The notes under the pieces: model-generated
What the model was told of the DNA's origin: nothing
Databases searched by the model: none
What the model saw: the letters and a program-made list of their open reading frames with translations, nothing else
Made by a program: the position numbers and the translations under genes
Shown: one piece after another, positions 1,421-24,284 of the stretch
How the letters are laid out: each line of letters starts with the position of its first letter
Position numbering within the stretch: position 1 is the stretch's first letter
From: Succinimonas amylolytica DSM 2873
Lineage (GTDB): Bacteria > Pseudomonadota > Gammaproteobacteria > Enterobacterales > Succinivibrionaceae
Direction of reading: 5' to 3'
Length of the DNA: 64,000 bases
Assembly: GCF_000378405.1 (NCBI RefSeq)
Contig: NZ_KB899639.1
Coordinates: forward strand, 52,946-116,945

Positions 1421-1455
1421 TGTCCTAATTAGTACAATCTGTTGTTACGGTTCTG

Positions 1456-2487
1456 CTACTTGATAATTACCTGCTCTTCGCCAGCTGCAGCATTCTCGAT
1501 AGAACCGATGATCCAGCTCTTTTCGCCGCAGGAATTCAGGATTTCCACAGTCTTCTCGGCATCTTCCTTGCTAACAACGCAGATCATGCCAACGCCGCAG
1601 TTAAAGGTGCGGTACATTTCGTGGGTATCAATGTTGCCGTTCTTCTGAATCCAGCTGAAAACCTCCGGCCAGGTCCAGGTGGCAGAATCGCATACCACCT
1701 TGGTTCCTTCAGGAAGTACCCGGGGAATGTTTTCCCAGAATCCGCCGCCGGTAATGTGAGCGAGGGCGTGGATGGTTACGGATTCCATAAGCTTCAGAAC
1801 CGACTTGACATAGATTCTGGTAGGGGTAAGAAGCGAATCAATAAGAGTGCGGCCGTCAGAAAGCTTCGCATAGGGATCAGCCTTTGATACTTCAAGAACC
1901 TTGCGGATCAGGGAATAGCCGTTGGAGTGGGGGCCTGTGGAGGCCAGGGCGATTACGGAATCTCCTGTTTTAACCTTGCTGCCGTCAATAATCTCGTCCT
2001 TTTCAACAACGCCTACAGCAAATCCGGCCAGATCGTAATCGTTGCCGTGATACATGCCAGGCATTTCTGCTGTTTCGCCGCCGATAAGGGAGCAGTTTGA
2101 CTGTCTGCAGCCTTCGGCAATGCCGGCGATAACCCTGGTTGCGTCATCTACGTTAAGCTTGCCAGTGGCATAGTAGTCCAGGAAGAACAGCGGCTCGGCA
2201 CCCTGAACAATAAGATCATTTACGCTCATGGCTACGAGATCGATTCCCACAGTGTCATGCTTTTTAAAGTCAATGGCTAAACGAAGCTTGGTGCCGACGC
2301 CGTCCGTTCCGGATACCAGAACAGGATTTTTATAGCGAGCCGGAATCCCGCAGAGAGCTCCGAAACCTCCGATGCTGCCCATTACCTCGGGTCTGGTGGT
2401 TGACTTTACGCTGCCTTTGATGTTCTGCACAAGTGCGTTGCCGGCGTCAATATCCACACCAGCCTCTTTGTAGCTTAATTTATCCAT
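1456..2487 (-). CDS. purM: phosphoribosylformylglycinamidine cyclo-ligase (AIR synthetase)
   Basis: Closes the imidazole ring of AIR from FGAM using ATP, the fifth step of de novo purine synthesis. The 343-residue protein begins [17 protein letters not shown]. It has the PurM-type segments [10 protein letters not shown] (residues about 60-70), [21 protein letters not shown] and [12 protein letters not shown], then THITGGG-like [10 protein letters not shown] in the C-terminal half. Full length for the family. It is not followed by purN here; galE lies downstream beyond a terminator. purL, the preceding enzyme of the pathway, is at 54.5-58.4 kb. I saw no clear PurR-like operator upstream. Confidence 0.97.
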
Positions 2488-2936
2488 ATGTTACTGAATC
2501 TGCCTCGTAAGAGATGCTGAAAAAATTTTGTTCATTTTAACAACAGCCCCGTATTTTATCAAGGCAGATCACATTTTTAGAAAATTGCCTTTTTCAGAAA
2601 TTGTGCCGTGGCATCGCTCCGAATAAGGATCCAGCGTGAAAGTGTTATCAAACCTGCTTTATTGCTGCTTCAGAACACTGATTTCTTATCTTTTCCCATA
2701 AATTTTCTTTGGACTGCTTCTGATTCCGGCCGGTTTTTCGAGCTGGATAAAATTTTATTCCGGGCGGCACGGGATATTTTTCTGATACTTAAACCGTAAA
2801 TGATATAATGAGGCGGGTTTTGTTCTGTAAAGATTGTCCGGTATTGCCGGATTAGAAGGCCGGGTGACAGGGCTGTTCAGGTGTCATTCCGGGGATCCAC
2901 GGAAAAGAGTCAGATAAACTAACTGTCGGCAGAGCT
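2488..2936. promoter_or_regulatory. divergent intergenic region purM / DUF2066 gene, with candidate promoter
   Basis: This region must carry promoters for purM (leftward) and the DUF2066 gene (rightward). A TATAAT at 2804-2809 is the best -10 candidate for the rightward gene; no good -35 sits 17 bases upstream. A 63-codon open frame at 2608-2799 has no family resemblance and a poor start context, so I do not call it a gene. Confidence 0.4.
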
Positions 2937-4244
2937 ATGAAAATTTCATTCAAAAGTGCATTGTTTTGTTCCCTTCTGGGATTATCCGGAGTTTCTCTGG
3001 CAGCCGGATACACCTATAAGGTTCCTTTTGACGGTGACTATGATGCGGCGTATTCCAAAGCCTTTAAAAAGATGGTTACCGAGGTGAGCCACGGAGCCAC
3101 GGATCCGGATTCTCTCAGAGTTAACATTCCGTCCCTGATTGCTTCCGAGGATATTTCTCTGGACGGTTCGGAATACATCGTGGTTTTTGATGAGGCCAAG
3201 GTAAAACGGCTTATTTCAAGAGGAGATATCTCAGTATGGAAGGGGTTCAGCCAGCCTCTGGTAGCCTGGGTGCTTCTGGGATTGCCGGAAACCGATGATT
3301 TGGGTGAGCAGCAGTACAAAACCTCATTTATTACCGATACCGAGGATCAGTTTTTAAAGGAACTTAAGAATGCGGGCAGCAAAAACGGCGTCAGTCTTCT
3401 GGTGCCGGTTTTTGATCTTGATGACATGACCGCACTCGGAACCTCAGATGTAATGCTTTCAGATGCCGGAAAGGCCAGCACTGCCTCTGCGAGATATAGT
3501 TCCGGATATGCTCTTTTGGGGGTTTTGAGTCCGGAGGCCGGCGGTCCGTACCAGTTTTCCTATCACATTGTGAATATTGCCCAGAAATCCGAAGTGCTTT
3601 CAAATTCAGTTTCCGGGAGCCTTTCTCAGGTGGCGGTGAGGTTTTATCAGGATCTGAAAAATAATGCGGCGCTGTTTTCAAGAAAGAATGTCGTAGATAA
3701 TGACCGGGACAGCCAGAACGGCCGGGACAACAGCAGTGATGCCGATACTGTTCCCGGATACTCTCATGTGGAGGCTCTCGGACTTGGCAGGCAGGATGAC
3801 GGCTCCTACCGGATTCTGGTGCAGGGAGCGGTAAACTTTTCCATAATGAAGCAGATTAAGGATGACCTTTACAACCGGGGATTCCAGTCGGTAAGCATTG
3901 CCGAGGTCAAGGGCGGAGATGTGGTTTATGCCCTGAAACCGGAGAAGAACATGTCTCTCGAAGAGGTTCTGGCTCAGGAAAAGGTACTGGTCAACAGAAC
4001 GCAGTATGTTTATCTGTATAATCCCAAGGCCTTCGGACGCAGTTCCGGCACCCAGTCTTCGGGAGGAAGTTCCGGAAGCGGGCGTGTCACTGAAGCCCCT
4101 CAGAGCGGCGATGCTCAGGACAGCAGCAGCGTGTCCTATGATGAAGCTGCCAAGGAGATCAGAGAACGCTACCGGCGCGATTCCGGCGGCTCTCCCAACC
4201 CGAACAACAGACTTCATACCGGCGGAGGCGTGGTAGAACGTTAA
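2937..4244 (+). CDS. DUF2066-family exported protein
   Basis: A 435-residue protein of unknown function with an N-terminal signal peptide (KISFKSALFCSLLGLSGVSLA, probable cleavage near residue 23). The body resembles the gammaproteobacterial DUF2066 family. A YIVVFDEAKVKRL segment is followed by the QPLVAWVLLGLP strand, then a VSLLVPVFDLDDM-x-LGTSDV block. The last 80 residues are Ser/Gly/Arg-rich and look disordered. DUF2066 genes commonly sit beside purM, hda and perM, as here. It ends 25 bases before hda and the two are probably co-transcribed. Its biochemical role is unknown; export to the periplasm is inferred. Confidence 0.85.
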   Translation: MKISFKSALFCSLLGLSGVSLAAGYTYKVPFDGDYDAAYSKAFKKMVTEVSHGATDPDSLRVNIPSLIASEDISLDGSEYIVVFDEAKVKRLISRGDISVWKGFSQPLVAWVLLGLPETDDLGEQQYKTSFITDTEDQFLKELKNAGSKNGVSLLVPVFDLDDMTALGTSDVMLSDAGKASTASARYSSGYALLGVLSPEAGGPYQFSYHIVNIAQKSEVLSNSVSGSLSQVAVRFYQDLKNNAALFSRKNVVDNDRDSQNGRDNSSDADTVPGYSHVEALGLGRQDDGSYRILVQGAVNFSIMKQIKDDLYNRGFQSVSIAEVKGGDVVYALKPEKNMSLEEVLAQEKVLVNRTQYVYLYNPKAFGRSSGTQSSGGSSGSGRVTEAPQSGDAQDSSSVSYDEAAKEIRERYRRDSGGSPNPNNRLHTGGGVVER

Positions 4245-4269
4245 GCTGTCACAGGACAGGCAGGCTACT

Positions 4270-5037
4270 ATGGTGAAAAGAAATTCTGACGTTACAGAAA
4301 GCGGCATCCAGATGCCCCTGACTCTTTCGTTCGGGGCAGGCATTTCCATGGACTCGTTCTGCGTCTGCCAGTCAAATGCAGCTGCCTATAACTATATTAA
4401 CGAATCGGTGGATACCGCCCGTGATGAACGTCGTTTTCTGTACCTTTACGGTCCTTCAGGCAGCGGGAAGACACATCTTATAAAAGGGGCTACCCTCCGG
4501 GCCGAAGCCATGGGAATGCGGGCCACAGTACTGGATATGGCCATCGTCAGCGAGTTTGACTGGGATTCCATGTACACCATGATGGTAGGTGTGGAAAGCA
4601 ATGACGTTATCCTTCTGGACAATATTGACGCCATTGCCGGAAACAGCGATCTGGAGGCGGAGATATTCAGTCTCTACAACCGCTGGCTAGGAGAGCCTTC
4701 CGGTTTTTTGGCGGTTGCTTCTCACGGATCCCCCACCAAGTCCGGCTTTGCCAAAAAGGATCTTATTTCCCGGTTCTCTTCCGGGGTCACCCTCTCAGTG
4801 GACTGCATTCCCCCGGAAATGTATCCTGAAATGCTGATGCGGCGCGAGAAGGCAAAGGGCGGCATTCTTCCGGAATCCCGGGCCGAGCAGATCTGCCGCC
4901 GCGTTAACAATATCAAGGATGCGATCAGGGCAGTAGATCTGATTGACGAAACCAGTATTGCCAACAAGAAGGGCGTTACCCGGAATCTGGTAAATCTGGT
5001 GCTGGATCGGCTGTTCGGCCGGAATGCCGAGAAATAG
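4270..5037 (+). CDS. hda: DnaA regulatory inactivator Hda
   Basis: AAA+ protein that, bound to the DNA-loaded sliding clamp, stimulates ATP hydrolysis by DnaA and so prevents re-initiation. The N-terminal QMPLTLSF (residues 14-21) matches the clamp-binding motif (Q-x-x-L-x-L) of Hda, which argues for keeping the start at 4270. Walker A is GPSGSGKTH (about residue 59) and Walker B-like VILLDNIDAIAG follows; the sensor-1 region SHGSP and the arginine-finger region SRFSSG are present. At 255 residues it is slightly longer than E. coli Hda because of the N-terminal extension. Walker A is more canonical here than in E. coli Hda. Confidence 0.93.
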   Translation: MVKRNSDVTESGIQMPLTLSFGAGISMDSFCVCQSNAAAYNYINESVDTARDERRFLYLYGPSGSGKTHLIKGATLRAEAMGMRATVLDMAIVSEFDWDSMYTMMVGVESNDVILLDNIDAIAGNSDLEAEIFSLYNRWLGEPSGFLAVASHGSPTKSGFAKKDLISRFSSGVTLSVDCIPPEMYPEMLMRREKAKGGILPESRAEQICRRVNNIKDAIRAVDLIDETSIANKKGVTRNLVNLVLDRLFGRNAEK

Positions 5038-5358
5038 CAGGAAAACGTAAACCATACCTTTCTTAAGAGAGGTGGGGGAGTAGGAGAGAGTAGAAGTAGA
5101 GTAGAGGCTTACCTCATTGTTATTTACGAACGATGAGAGTAGCTCAAAAACTTCCTTTTTACCAAAATAAAAGGAAAGCCGTTTTCAGGACTTTTTTCGT
5201 AAGGTTCAGACTCAGACTGGGGTTTATTTTCAGAAAACTCAGTATCTCACCCAGGATTTTCTGGGACTGTTCAGATTTTCTTCATTTTATTCCCGGTTTC
5301 CGGTTTTATGCCGGGATTTCCGTATGTCCATACGGAAATCCCGAACTCTCTTCGGCCG
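5038..5358. other. convergent intergenic region hda / perM
   Basis: Holds a G/A-rich plus-strand tract at 5065-5108 (C/T-rich on the minus strand) and a perfect 15-bp inverted repeat at 5312-5343. Short frames here are not supported as genes. Confidence 0.5.
5312..5343 (-). terminator. perfect 15-bp palindrome downstream of perM
   Basis: Arms CGGGATTTCCGTATG (5312-5326) and its exact complement (5329-5343) are separated by 2 bases. There is no T-run, so it is not a standard intrinsic terminator. It may stop or stabilise the 3' end of the perM transcript. Minus-strand RNA then enters the C/T-rich, G-poor stretch 5108-5065, which looks like a Rho-loading (rut-like) site. Confidence 0.5.
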
Positions 5359-6960
5359 TCAGCTTTGCGCGGCATCCGGCGGCAGCTCTTTTTCAGGCGG
5401 GGTGTCGTGGGGTGGCAGTTCCCGTGTGGGCCACATGGTTACCACCGTCTTTACAAAAATTGCCAGCGGGATAGCCAGCACAATTCCCCAGAAGCCCCAG
5501 ATGGCCCCGAACACGAATACCGATATCAGAATTGAGAAGGCATCCATGTTCAGTCTTTCTGAAAACAGCATCGGAGTAATGACATAGGCGTCTATCAGCT
5601 GAAGAACGGCATAGATGGTCAGGAGCATTACCAGATCTCCGCTTAGACCGAACTGCATGATTCCCACAGCGACCAGGGGGATGGTGATGATTACCATTCC
5701 CACATAGGGTACCAGCACACTGAGACCAACGCCGATTGCCAGGAGCAGGGCGTAGTTCAGATCCATTGCCCACAGGAAAATGCCGTTTATTAGGGCAACA
5801 ATGGCTATGTGGATAATGTTTCCGATAAAGTACTGGGTGATAAGCCTGTTGATCTCCTTCCAGAAGTTCGCCACTTCATCGTAGGCGGAACAGTAATGCC
5901 CGATGATACTGAGCAGGCGATCCTTGTCCTTGAGCATAAAGAAGGAAAATATCGGAACAATGATAACGTAGACCGTTATAAAGCTCATGGTGTTCATGAA
6001 CAGGGGGGCAATCTGCTTGATAGCAGGAGTAATGAGATTCTTGAACCCCTCTTCAAGATAGTCTACCAGAGACTTCAGCTGATCGGTAGTGATGATGTTC
6101 TGATAGCTTTCGGGAAGCTTGCTCCGGATTTTGTTGAACTGCTCGGTGAGCCAGTTTAATGCCTTGTCGTTTTCGGCCTTGTCAATTTCATTCCGGGCCT
6201 GCTTTCCGCTGTCAGCAGGCACTTCTTCATTGTTATCGCCGGCATCCTTTGCTGCGGGATCTTCAGATTTGGCGATGCTTTCGTCTGGAACACTTTTTCC
6301 GGTCTCAGAGACATTGGTTACAGTGTTTTCCGGGGCCGGACTACCTTCAGGAGTTTTCACGGCTTCATTAAGCGCACTTTCCCGGGGGGCTTCGGAAATC
6401 ACCGGGGTTCCCTCAAGGACGGGAGTGTCCGCATTTTCTAAATGCTGTTCCGGGGTATCCGGGACTGCGTCCGGGTCTTTTACCGCTTCCTCTGACTCCG
6501 GTTTGGGAGTTTCGCTGATTACCGTATCTTCCTTTTGAGAAGTATTGCTATTCGGGGAGATTTTTTCAGACCGGGAGAACATTTTTCCCTTCCCGGAACC
6601 AAAGACGGCTTCGTTTGGTGCGGGAGTATTGCTGTTATTAATGGCAATGCCGATTTTCTGGGTCATGGTGGTAAGCTGCTTTACCGCAGGAGGTGCTACG
6701 GCAAACACAATGCTTCCCACGAGAATAAGGGCGGACAGCATGATGATGGTGGCGGCTTTGGTACGGCTGATGCCGTGCTTCACCATGAAGGATACCGGCC
6801 GTTCAAAGATAAAGGCCAGCACCAGAGCGGCGATGAGGGGCCCGAATACGCTGCTCCCGTAGTAAACCATAAGGTAGATGGTTATGAACTGAAGCAGAAG
6901 GACGGCACATGGGGGATTTGAAAGATTTCGAAAATACCACTTTCTGATAAACTCAAACAT
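5359..6960 (-). CDS. perM: AI-2E family transporter / putative permease PerM with long acidic insert
   Basis: Inner-membrane protein of the AI-2E transport (UPF0118) family; the physiological substrate of PerM is not firmly known. Three membrane segments lie within residues 15-95 (including the AALVLAFIFERPVSFM region). Further segments lie between about 330 and 505, with the family's VLVPYVGMVIITIPL and LIDAYVITPMLFSERLNM blocks. Residues about 107-268 form a Pro/Glu/Ser/Thr-rich low-complexity acidic insert not seen in the roughly 353-residue E. coli protein, which explains the length of 533. By topology this insert would sit in the soluble loop between the two membrane halves. It neighbours hda and bepA, as in enteric bacteria. 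Confidence 0.9.
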   Translation of the reverse strand: MFEFIRKWYFRNLSNPPCAVLLLQFITIYLMVYYGSSVFGPLIAALVLAFIFERPVSFMVKHGISRTKAATIIMLSALILVGSIVFAVAPPAVKQLTTMTQKIGIAINNSNTPAPNEAVFGSGKGKMFSRSEKISPNSNTSQKEDTVISETPKPESEEAVKDPDAVPDTPEQHLENADTPVLEGTPVISEAPRESALNEAVKTPEGSPAPENTVTNVSETGKSVPDESIAKSEDPAAKDAGDNNEEVPADSGKQARNEIDKAENDKALNWLTEQFNKIRSKLPESYQNIITTDQLKSLVDYLEEGFKNLITPAIKQIAPLFMNTMSFITVYVIIVPIFSFFMLKDKDRLLSIIGHYCSAYDEVANFWKEINRLITQYFIGNIIHIAIVALINGIFLWAMDLNYALLLAIGVGLSVLVPYVGMVIITIPLVAVGIMQFGLSGDLVMLLTIYAVLQLIDAYVITPMLFSERLNMDAFSILISVFVFGAIWGFWGIVLAIPLAIFVKTVVTMWPTRELPPHDTPPEKELPPDAAQS

Positions 6961-7390
6961 ATTTCACTTCTTCAATAACAGACCAGAAATATACTGCTAT
7001 GCTACCATAAAGTGGCCTTGCCGTGCTAATGTGGCAGGACGGCCTCTTGGGGTGTAAGCCGGTAATCACAATCAGGGGAGAATTTTTCGGGAAGTATCTG
7101 TGGATAAGTGCCTGATAAACGTCAGCTAAGCCCTTGGAACGGATTTTGCCGGGGCATATGTGCGGTCCTGCGAGCTGTGCCAGGGATTCAGATTCCGTTT
7201 TTTACTGTTTCAGCCGGCAGAGCGTCGAACATTTTGACCGTTTTCTCTATCTAATGCTGGTAATGGATTTATGATGTCGGGAAGTTTCTGGGTGTTTTTC
7301 CGGTTTTTTCTATTGATTTCCTGCAGTATCCGGGATTTTTAGGCCTGAAGGACCGTGCGGGACGGCTCTCTCACATCAAATGGTGGTTTT
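6961..7390. other. divergent intergenic region perM / bepA
   Basis: This 430-bp region should hold the promoters of both genes. I could not pick a convincing -10/-35 pair. A GTG at 7355 would extend bepA by 12 residues, but the ATG at 7391 gives a proper signal peptide. Confidence 0.4.
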
Positions 7391-8827
7391 ATGATTCTGA
7401 AAGTGCGGAAAACTCTTAAATTGCTTCTGATAGCCGGACTTCTGACCTGCGGAGGTACCGGGGCTTCTGATTTTAACATCGGAACAGCCGGTGTCAGGGG
7501 GATGACTGTTGAAAAGGAAAAGGAGCTGGGACAGTATTTCATGCTTGTGGCCAGATCCCAGCTTCCGATTGTCTATGATCCCGTGCTCAGCGAATATCTC
7601 ACCGGTACTGTAGGCAGAATGGCCGCTCAGGCCCAGGGTGTCAGGTATCCCTTTGAATCTTTTTTTGTGGAGGATTCTTCGGTTAATGCCGCCGCGTTTT
7701 TCGGGGGAAAGGTCATGGTTAATACTGGCCTTATTGCGGTAACCGACACGGAGAGCGAATTTGCCGGAGTGCTGGCCCATGAAATGACTCACATTACCCA
7801 GAGACACCTGGCACGCAGTATTGAGATCCAGAGTGATGCTCAGACCGCCGGAATTCTGGGAATGCTTGGCGGGCTTATTCTGGGAGTGGTAAACCCCGCC
7901 CTGGCGATGGCCACTGTTTCTGCATCTATTAACGGAGTACAGCAGACGTCCATAAACTATACCCGCAGTAACGAGGAGGAGGCGGACAGACTCGGGGTGG
8001 ATCTTATGTACCGGTCCGGTTTCAACCCCGAAGGGATGCCGGGAATGTTTAGAAAACTGCGCACTCTTGATAATAAGGTTAATCCGGCTTTTGAAATGCT
8101 TTTGACACACCCTCTCAGCGAAAAGCGCGTGGCCGATGCCGAAAACAGAGCCCGGCAGCTCAAAAAGAACCGGTATTACGAAAGTGATGACTATCAGTTT
8201 GCCAAAAGCCGTGTTCTGGCCAGATTCAGCAAGCTCCCCCGGGATTACCTCAGGGGGGAAGCCGAAAGGCGTATCAGGGGAAATCCTGATGATTACGGAG
8301 CCTGGTATCTTCTGGCTCTGGTAGCGACTGACGGCGGAGACCGTGCTACAGCGGGGAAGGCTCTTGAAGTTCTTAACCGGAAATTCAGTTCCAATCTTTT
8401 TATTATTGATACGATGACTGACTATCTGATTGGTTCCGGAAAGGCGGCCAGTGCTGCTGAAATGCTGGAAAAGCAGCTAAAGAAGCATCCGGACAACGAA
8501 GTGGTGGCCGTAAATCTGGCCCAGTCCTATCTGGAAAGCGGCAAGCCGGACAGTGCCATTCAGGTGCTGAGACGCCTTAACCGGACCCGGGATTCTGTTG
8601 TGGGAAAGGAGCTTCTGATGAAGGCCTATCGCAGTAAAAAGGATATCTGCAGCATGTATCAGCTTAACGCCGAGCTTATGACCTATCGTGGCCGCTGGGA
8701 AGAGGCGATGATGAATGCAAATACTGCATTGCGAGTCTGCAAAAATAAAAACGATGTGATGCGAACCAGAGCTCTGGTTTCAAAAATTGCGAAGGATCAG
8801 TCCCTGTACAAGGAGCTCCTGAAATAA
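7391..8827 (+). CDS. bepA: beta-barrel assembly-enhancing protease BepA (M48 metalloprotease with TPR)
   Basis: Periplasmic zinc metalloprotease and chaperone that promotes outer-membrane assembly of LptD and degrades stalled forms. The ATG at 7391 starts a signal peptide (ILKVRKTLKLLLIAGLLTCGG). The zinc-binding HEMTH lies in GVLAHEMTHITQRHLARS. The third ligand is in SNEEEADRLGVDLMYRSGF, and HPLSEKRVADAENRA closes the protease domain. The C-terminal half is TPR-like (about residues 265-478). Near-identical length to E. coli BepA (about 487). Its position beside perM matches the enteric order. Confidence 0.94.
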   Translation: MILKVRKTLKLLLIAGLLTCGGTGASDFNIGTAGVRGMTVEKEKELGQYFMLVARSQLPIVYDPVLSEYLTGTVGRMAAQAQGVRYPFESFFVEDSSVNAAAFFGGKVMVNTGLIAVTDTESEFAGVLAHEMTHITQRHLARSIEIQSDAQTAGILGMLGGLILGVVNPALAMATVSASINGVQQTSINYTRSNEEEADRLGVDLMYRSGFNPEGMPGMFRKLRTLDNKVNPAFEMLLTHPLSEKRVADAENRARQLKKNRYYESDDYQFAKSRVLARFSKLPRDYLRGEAERRIRGNPDDYGAWYLLALVATDGGDRATAGKALEVLNRKFSSNLFIIDTMTDYLIGSGKAASAAEMLEKQLKKHPDNEVVAVNLAQSYLESGKPDSAIQVLRRLNRTRDSVVGKELLMKAYRSKKDICSMYQLNAELMTYRGRWEEAMMNANTALRVCKNKNDVMRTRALVSKIAKDQSLYKELLK

Positions 8828-20509: not shown

Positions 20510-22715
<2,206 letters not shown>

Positions 22716-22923
22716 TCCCTTTTCAGAGGTGCCGGGGGAACATCCCGGTATCCCTGAGTAACGGACGGAACAGGGGAAAACGGATTAATGGTGCCGGAAC
22801 CGGAAGCTGCTAAAAATTGGTGAATTCGGCATGGTTTTGGGGCTGTGCCTTTTTGCTGCCCTTTTGGAATTCGGTACAATTGCAGATAAGGGCATGCAGG
22901 CCTGCAGCAGGGAGCTTTTAATT

Positions 22924-23670
22924 ATGTTCAGAATAACCGACAACGGTATTGCGGAAATCAGCGGCTACATTCCTGACGGCTTCCTTACCGGCTATGGCCT
23001 TTATGAAACCATGAGAATCCTTTACGAAAAGGAACGCAACATTATCCGTGCCGAAAATCTGGCCGAGCATTATCGGAGACTCAGTGCCGGAATGGAGGAG
23101 CTGGGACTTACGGGGGACTTTTCGCTCCACCGCCTGGAAAATGCCCTGAGTGCCCTTATCGGCACCAGAAATATCCGTTCCGGATCCGTATCGGTGTATA
23201 TTGTGGCCGACCACTATCCCCATGCGGAGTTTCTGATTTCCCATGATTCCCGGATCGTCCCTGACGAAGACTACCGCCGGGGTTATCGTGTCAAGATTTC
23301 CAGAACCCGGATTCCCGCCACGGGGCTGACTTCCCGGTATCTGACCCTTTCCCGGCTGGACAGCAGGCTTATGCTGAACACGGCCCGGAGGGAAGGGGTG
23401 GACGACCTTATTTTTCTGAACACCGACAATTATGTGGCCCAGTGCTGCGAGGCCAATATTTTCTGGCAGATGAAGCGTATTATCTACACGCCCAGCATCA
23501 GTGCCGGAATTGTGGCCGGTGTTGCCAGACAGAAGACCATTGACCGTTATCAGGCCCGGGGCTACATCATCAAGGAAGGTCTTTTCGAGCTTAATGATCT
23601 CTATCTGGCGGATCGTATTTTTCTGGTAAGCGCCATGCTGAACGAGATGCCGGCGCAGATCGTCCGGTGA
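22924..23670 (+). CDS. PabC-like (class IV aminotransferase fold) protein lacking the PLP lysine
   Basis: 248-residue member of the fold-type IV PLP family, most like aminodeoxychorismate lyase (PabC). Matching features are DGFLTGYGLYETMRI near the N-terminus, a QCCEANIFW block and YTPSISAGIVAGVAR. The motif that should read L-K-x-L-N-R-L reads YLTLSRL, putting Leu140 at the catalytic lysine. The pyridine-binding Glu of the T-E-C-C block is Gln173. Both changes argue against normal PLP chemistry. The start is the ATG at 22924, with GGGAG upstream. It sits between tgt and yajC, whereas pabC normally neighbours yceG/tmk. Function open: a diverged lyase or a pseudo-enzyme. Confidence 0.7.
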   Translation: MFRITDNGIAEISGYIPDGFLTGYGLYETMRILYEKERNIIRAENLAEHYRRLSAGMEELGLTGDFSLHRLENALSALIGTRNIRSGSVSVYIVADHYPHAEFLISHDSRIVPDEDYRRGYRVKISRTRIPATGLTSRYLTLSRLDSRLMLNTARREGVDDLIFLNTDNYVAQCCEANIFWQMKRIIYTPSISAGIVAGVARQKTIDRYQARGYIIKEGLFELNDLYLADRIFLVSAMLNEMPAQIVR

Positions 23671-23870
23671 CTGTCTTTTAGGGCGCGGAATGCGTGTTCC
23701 GGCCTGTCCTCGCACCGATGAGGTCTCCTCGTTCCTTCTTTTTCTGTTTTCCTTTCAGAAATCCTTTTTTGTCCTGTTTGGGTCTTCTGCTTTTTTGAGC
23801 GAAAGTGCCCTGGCAGATCCGCATGCCGTCCCGGCAATTTAAAAAACGTGCGGAGGATCTCCTAATTGGT

Positions 23871-23876
23871 TATAAT
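23871..23876 (+). promoter_or_regulatory. -10 candidate for yajC-secDF
   Basis: TATAAT 40 bases before the yajC start; no good -35 is visible 17 bases upstream. Confidence 0.4.
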
Positions 23877-23915
23877 GCTCGCTTTGTAAATGCATTGTAC
23901 TTTTGAGGTAGATTC

Positions 23916-24284
23916 ATGAATTTCTTTCCGACAGCGCTGGCTGATGAAGCAGCCGCCGGAGCCGCTCAGGCCCCGCAGCCGCAGTTTGATTTCACCTTTC
24001 TCATCATCATGGTGGGGTTCTTTGTTGTTTTCTATTTCCTGATGATGCGTCCGCAGAGCCAGAAGAGAAAGGAAATGGAGAAGATCCTGAATGAGCTTAA
24101 GCCCGGGGAGGAGATTTATACCACCGGCGGTATTGTGGGCAAAATTCTGAAGATCAGTGAAAATCGTGACTACTACACCATTCAGGTCAGTGCCAGCAGT
24201 ACTCTGATGATAAGACGCGTCAATATTGCCGGGGTGCTGCCGAAGGGAACCTTCGAAGTAGTAAAGACCTCGGATCTCAAATAG
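23916..24284 (+). CDS. yajC: Sec translocon accessory protein YajC
   Basis: Small inner-membrane subunit of the SecDF-YajC complex. 122 residues: a Pro/Ala-rich N-terminus, one membrane helix (FTFLIIMVGFFVVFYFLMM, about 27-45), then the conserved RPQSQKRKEMEKIL and GEEIYTTGGIVGKI. First gene of yajC-secD-secF. Confidence 0.96.
   Translation: MNFFPTALADEAAAGAAQAPQPQFDFTFLIIMVGFFVVFYFLMMRPQSQKRKEMEKILNELKPGEEIYTTGGIVGKILKISENRDYYTIQVSASSTLMIRRVNIAGVLPKGTFEVVKTSDLK

Follow-up and report, generated by a model that had tools for sequence, protein, structure and literature searches.

A PabC-like protein without the PLP lysine, held by purifying selection in Succinimonas amylolytica

Why would a rumen bacterium keep a PabC-like protein that has lost the lysine on which the usual PLP chemistry of its family depends, and what could such a protein still do? 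The question is raised by a gene in a window of 64,000 nucleotides (the whole stretch of DNA analysed here), in which positions 22924-23670 of the + strand hold an open frame of 248 amino acids that begins with ATG at 22924 and ends with TGA at 23670. The orthologous protein of the sole other genome of this genus that was found (G001, a draft that is 84% complete; G000 is the genome of the window) is conserved from this ATG onwards, and a GGGAG at 22910-22914 (+), 9 bases 5' of the ATG and read from the sequence, is a candidate ribosome-binding site. Putative promoter-like sites number 1 against a shuffle mean of 1.2, and terminator-like sites 3 against a shuffle mean of 1.5.

The fold of the protein appears to be that of PabC. 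The PF01063 (Aminotran_4) model matches it with 117.5 bits at a curated cut-off of 28.5, and a search of solved structures returns PabC, branched-chain transaminases and D-amino-acid transaminases. The predicted structure has a mean pLDDT of 90.0 and a pTM of 0.85, and its lowest block of ten residues (pLDDT 70) comprises residues 131-140, ending at the former lysine position. The model superposes on E. coli PabC 1i2k with a Z score of 27.2 and 1.9 Å over 235 residues at 22% identity, and Z scores of about 27 against 1i2k, 1i1l and 3lul place the predicted structure in fold-type IV. Thus, the first-pass annotation was right that the remainder of the fold is intact and the frame open. The protein reaches only 78.6 bits on NCBIfam TIGR03461 (equivalog cut-off 176.85), but this miss does not discriminate, because lysine-bearing relatives, with 82.0, 118.6 and 93.2 bits, fall below the cut-off too.

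Sequence alignment with E. coli PabC (1et0), which runs without gaps over residues 120-244, sets Leu140 (CTG, 23341-23343, +) at the position of the Schiff-base lysine and Gln173 (CAG, 23440-23442, +) at that of the glutamate that holds the pyridine nitrogen, and the homologue alignments agree. These are the two losses that had been read from the sequence in the first-pass annotation, and both are borne out, the TECC motif being AQCC here; however, a third change was omitted from it, since Ser90 (23191-23193, +) occupies the position of the second catalytic lysine of PabC in the alignment with lysine-bearing rows, 17 of which have K and one R among 18. In the portion of the P. aeruginosa PabC study on which we draw (PMC3174152), Lys140 is the cofactor lysine, Glu173 is in contact with the ring nitrogen, and the phosphate is held by Arg46, which Glu28 and His43 keep in position; the residues called catalytic there are Thr29 and Lys80. 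Ser90 is the counterpart of that Lys80 by alignment, and Arg is found there in one relative and in T. thermophilus. The phosphate-binding side of the site is kept: Glu28 and Thr29 (codons at 23005-23010, +) match a phosphate-cup residue and the catalytic Thr of PabC, codons 49-52 (23068-23079, +) include the cup residues His49 and Arg52 (all 78 aligned proteins have His and Arg here), and codons 199-202 (23518-23529, +) include Gly199 and Arg202, also of the cup. There are 21 near-invariant PabC columns, defined as alike in at least 16 of the 18 rows with the lysine (3 from the family and 15 from the order), and 14 are unchanged in this protein, the phosphate cup included. The seven changed columns are Phe to Tyr27, Lys to Ser90, Leu to Val123, Lys to Leu140, Glu to Asp146, Glu to Gln173 and Asn to Ser236, and the radical substitutions are those of the three chemistry residues at 90, 140 and 173. 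At the position of Ser237, a PLP-phosphate contact of P. aeruginosa PabC, the protein has Ala, as do 7 of the 18 lysine-bearing rows.

Could another lysine take over? Lysines occur in the protein at 36, 124, 184, 204 and 217 only, and in the G001 orthologue at 36, 57, 63, 184, 204 and 217. None of those in the 248-residue protein appears to fall at a cofactor-contacting position named for PabC in the part of PMC3174152 drawn on here, and the substitute lysine for which a check had been proposed is accordingly rejected as a candidate. Set beside the PabC proteins of E. coli (1et0/1i2k), P. aeruginosa (2y4r) and L. pneumophila (3lul), the protein has the whole fold in common, together with the phosphate cup and the catalytic Thr by which membership in PabC can be judged (Glu28, Thr29, His49, Arg52, Gly199, Arg202), but unlike them it is without the Schiff-base lysine, the pyridine-nitrogen glutamate and the second catalytic lysine. 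Judging from these residues, it would be unable to perform the PLP chemistry of the family by the usual mechanism: without the lysine, no internal aldimine would form, and ordinary PLP lyase or transaminase chemistry would not follow. Automatic annotation would probably label it aminotransferase or aminodeoxychorismate lyase, and such a label is likely wrong.

How widespread and how old is the loss? We collected 78 homologous proteins from best-match loci, which are no random sample. Column 140 has K in 70 and L in 2 of the 72 that align at columns 140 and 173, and column 173 has E in 66, C in 3, Q in 2 and S in 1; both L rows and both Q rows belong to this protein and to the orthologue of the same genus. 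The remaining six are PabB-PabC fusion frames that do not align at these columns, one of them a piece from G001. The orthologue in G001 is 94% identical in protein sequence and has the same Leu140, Gln173 and Ser90, and a scan of genome contigs returned one locus, from the same-genus genome. Among 56 genomes of the family (Succinivibrionaceae) that were searched, 14 gave a match at E 1e-9 or better, and five are set apart at E 7e-32 or better (the next at 2.2e-14): the two genomes of the genus and G007, G030 and G006 from other genera, whose proteins are 40%, 33% and 34% identical to the 248-residue protein, respectively. All three have K and E at the two cofactor positions and K or R at position 90. 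A tree of 28 proteins unites the five in one clade (100/99), and inside this lysine-bearing clade the lysine-less pair is sister to G007 (90/87), with a stem of 1.05 and tips of 0.04-0.06. Another class IV protein of G030 (L108, G030:C60:1180-1824) stands out in this tree by the great length of its branch (3.15). As Leu, Gln and Ser are common to both genomes and the nearest relatives have K and E, the loss predates the split of the two species, and as far as sampled by these sequences the loss of lysine, glutamate and second lysine lies on the genus stem. This also answers whether the orthologue shares the changes or the mutation is recent: a recent mutation or sequencing error is rejected, because L, Q and S are common to two genomes whose copies of the gene are 88% identical in nucleotides and because the CTG at codon 140 is two substitutions away from the nearest Lys codon. 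No further lysine-less protein was found among the aligned best loci of overlapping searches of 59, 56, 394 and 398 genomes, although such proteins may exist elsewhere, because the alignment covered the best loci from each search only.

The first-pass annotation had placed the gene beside tgt and yajC, and this position is the same in this genome and in G007. Upstream lies a gene at 21606-22715 (+) that we take to be tgt, its name resting on comparison with G007 and its start set by homology within a longer frame; downstream, the gene at 23916-24284 (+) is presumably yajC, a name taken from that annotation. In G007 a lysine-bearing gene (L069 6304-7053) sits between tgt and yajC; its protein resembles ours in gene order, in 40% identity over residues 1-245 and as sister in the tree, but differs in having the Lys and Glu and in having Ala at position 29. 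In G001, tgt lies upstream of the orthologue, and no yajC is recognisable within the 597 bases left on the contig. The 245 bases between the gene and yajC (23671-23915) can hardly be aligned with the same place in G001. The genes of G030 and G006 come after pabB-like frames, more than one in G006.

A second, normal pabC was worth seeking in the genome, and it is present as a PabB-PabC fusion. There are three class IV (PF01063) matches in the genome, all above the cut-off: a branched-chain-transaminase-like gene, the gene under study, and the end of a 576-residue frame outside the window (G000:C4:255329-257053). The end of this fusion belongs to the same class IV fold and Pfam model as our protein, but unlike it keeps Lys and Glu (in HKT and EGT when its PabC domain is aligned to Mlr3007, 3qqm), is fused to PabB, and is followed by a glutamine amidotransferase (GATase) gene, pabA-like, the expected PabA. 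Four genomes from one other genus in the family (L036-L039) contain relatives of the fusion with 61-71% identity, which suggests transfer or patchy loss. Each of the seven genomes tested has Pterin_bind matches, as of dihydropteroate synthase. The fusion gene of G001 (L072, G001:C5:20500-30000, about 1430-7955) is broken by an insert of ~4.8 kb that carries IS21-type genes and is bounded by 9-base direct repeats, and a frame change lies upstream of the insert; the pabA-like frame after it is open. The interruption may be a real loss or an assembly effect, and it may be absent from part of the population, because the genome is an 84% complete draft. In G007 no PabB was found; a reading of its frames gives two chorismate-binding enzymes, of which the first lies beside a TrpG-like gene and the second is isochorismate-synthase-like, and its lysine-bearing PabC-like protein, with Ala at position 29, is without the catalytic Thr. 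Perhaps the loss of the lysine came after the gene between tgt and yajC had already ceased to serve p-aminobenzoate synthesis.

Is the gene still maintained? Selection was measured on one genome pair, G000 and G001, to which the result is limited because only two genomes carry the change. The two genes differ at 89 of 744 bases, distributed as 12, 9 and 68 over codon positions one, two and three, and these differences change 16 amino acids. In 2000 neutral simulations that matched the observed numbers of changes and of transitions, 48 to 72 amino acids changed and a stop arose in 1779. The dN/dS (NG86) is about 0.09, compared with 0.04 for tgt and 0.07 for the neighbouring queA in the same pair, so that the gene is about as constrained as queA; two pieces of the fusion gene give 0.24 and 0.14 and a third yielded no value, and the malE-, malG- and malK-like transporter genes upstream on the same contig, with 0.00-0.015, are more constrained. 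Synonymous sites against G007 are saturated. DNA identity between the two genomes is 88% in the gene, 60% in the 5' intergenic flank and about 41% in the 3' intergenic flank, and neither genome has a stop or frame change in the gene. The dN/dS, the simulations and the far more diverged flanks disfavor a decaying gene; the gene has been held by purifying selection since the split of the two species, which argues for a kept function. Together with the shared changes in the orthologue and the want of another lysine at the cofactor-contacting positions named for PabC, this selection supports the earlier suggestion of a non-PLP descendant that is kept.

In the sense of catalytic residues lost and a protein kept by selection, the gene would be classed as a pseudoenzyme from this one pair. 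We favor, with about even confidence, a PabC-derived pseudoenzyme that lost the lysine, the glutamate and the second lysine on the genus branch and was kept as a ligand-binding or regulatory protein. On that branch the PLP lysine became Leu, the pyridine-nitrogen Glu Gln and the second catalytic lysine Ser, with fold and phosphate cup kept; the fusion would make p-aminobenzoate and so have freed the old PabC. In the weakest step, the protein, probably a dimer, would work in ligand binding or regulation and may hold PLP, PMP or some other metabolite with a phosphate non-covalently in the old cofactor pocket. Two considerations weigh against this reading as a whole, namely that only two genomes carry the change and that the upstream mal-like genes are more constrained, and displacement by the fusion is an imperfect account, because G007 keeps the lysine with neither a PabB found nor Thr29 and the fusion of G001 is interrupted. 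More tentatively, we suggest that the protein is a neofunctionalised fold-type IV protein specific to the genus: given a fusion that would make p-aminobenzoate, the old PabC may have turned, on one branch, into a sensor or an enzyme that needs no PLP and binds a ligand of its own where the cofactor used to sit.

A new enzyme, in which the old pocket catalyses a PLP-independent reaction through Thr29, Tyr27, Glu28 or Cys174/Cys175, would account for a long stem followed by constraint and for a pocket otherwise conserved, as expected for a changed function, but the neighbours tgt and yajC suggest neither substrate nor reaction, and we regard it as unlikely. We also doubt strongly that the protein is a regulatory partner that forms mixed dimers with a class IV protein that has the lysine, either the branched-chain transaminase or the fusion's PabC domain, and tunes it: in PabC each active site sits at the interface of the dimer and includes residues of the partner, according to the portion of PMC3174152 used here, and other families are known to have dead paralogues by which active partners are regulated (PMC5201418), but the PabC domain of the fusion is shorter and distant, being found by the 248-residue query only at E about 1e-4. 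That the protein is still a PLP or PMP enzyme, working lysine-free with a non-covalent cofactor and a base or amine from elsewhere, is consistent with the phosphate-cup side chains but improbable to a high degree, as the ring-nitrogen glutamate and the second lysine are also lost and no other lysine stands at a cofactor-contacting position named in that portion of PMC3174152. A slowly decaying relict, its function lost when the fusion took over, is scarcely credible: three lost catalytic residues, a normal PabC elsewhere in the genome and residues kept in G007, G030 and G006 would fit it, but the selection results and the intact frame in both genomes largely refute it.

The PabC-derived pseudoenzyme that we favor is of interest because lysine-less class IV proteins are rare among the loci aligned here (2 of 72 proteins from best-match loci, both from this genus). 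Its relatives have the lysine, one of them at the same locus, the genome also holds a normal PabC, and selection can be measured, so that the change from PLP enzyme to pseudoenzyme can be assigned to a single branch and is open to testing. A rumen bacterium keeps a well-preserved relative of a vitamin B6-dependent folate-pathway enzyme that is without its chemistry residues and has probably been reused. Our search of titles and abstracts returned no report of a lysine-less PabC and none on 7z79, an aminotransferase-like protein of Variovorax paradoxus. The latter is of fold-type IV like our protein (Z 25.9, 2.4 Å, 238 residues) but has about 300 residues, 19% identity and Asn instead of Leu. 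From entry titles and match ranges, 7z79 appears to be naturally without the Schiff-base lysine; thus a lysine-less fold-type IV protein has apparently been crystallised, and the kind is not wholly new but likely has a precedent. Entry 9j32 is an engineered N174K form of 7z79, and by its title and match range residue 174 lies within one of position 140.
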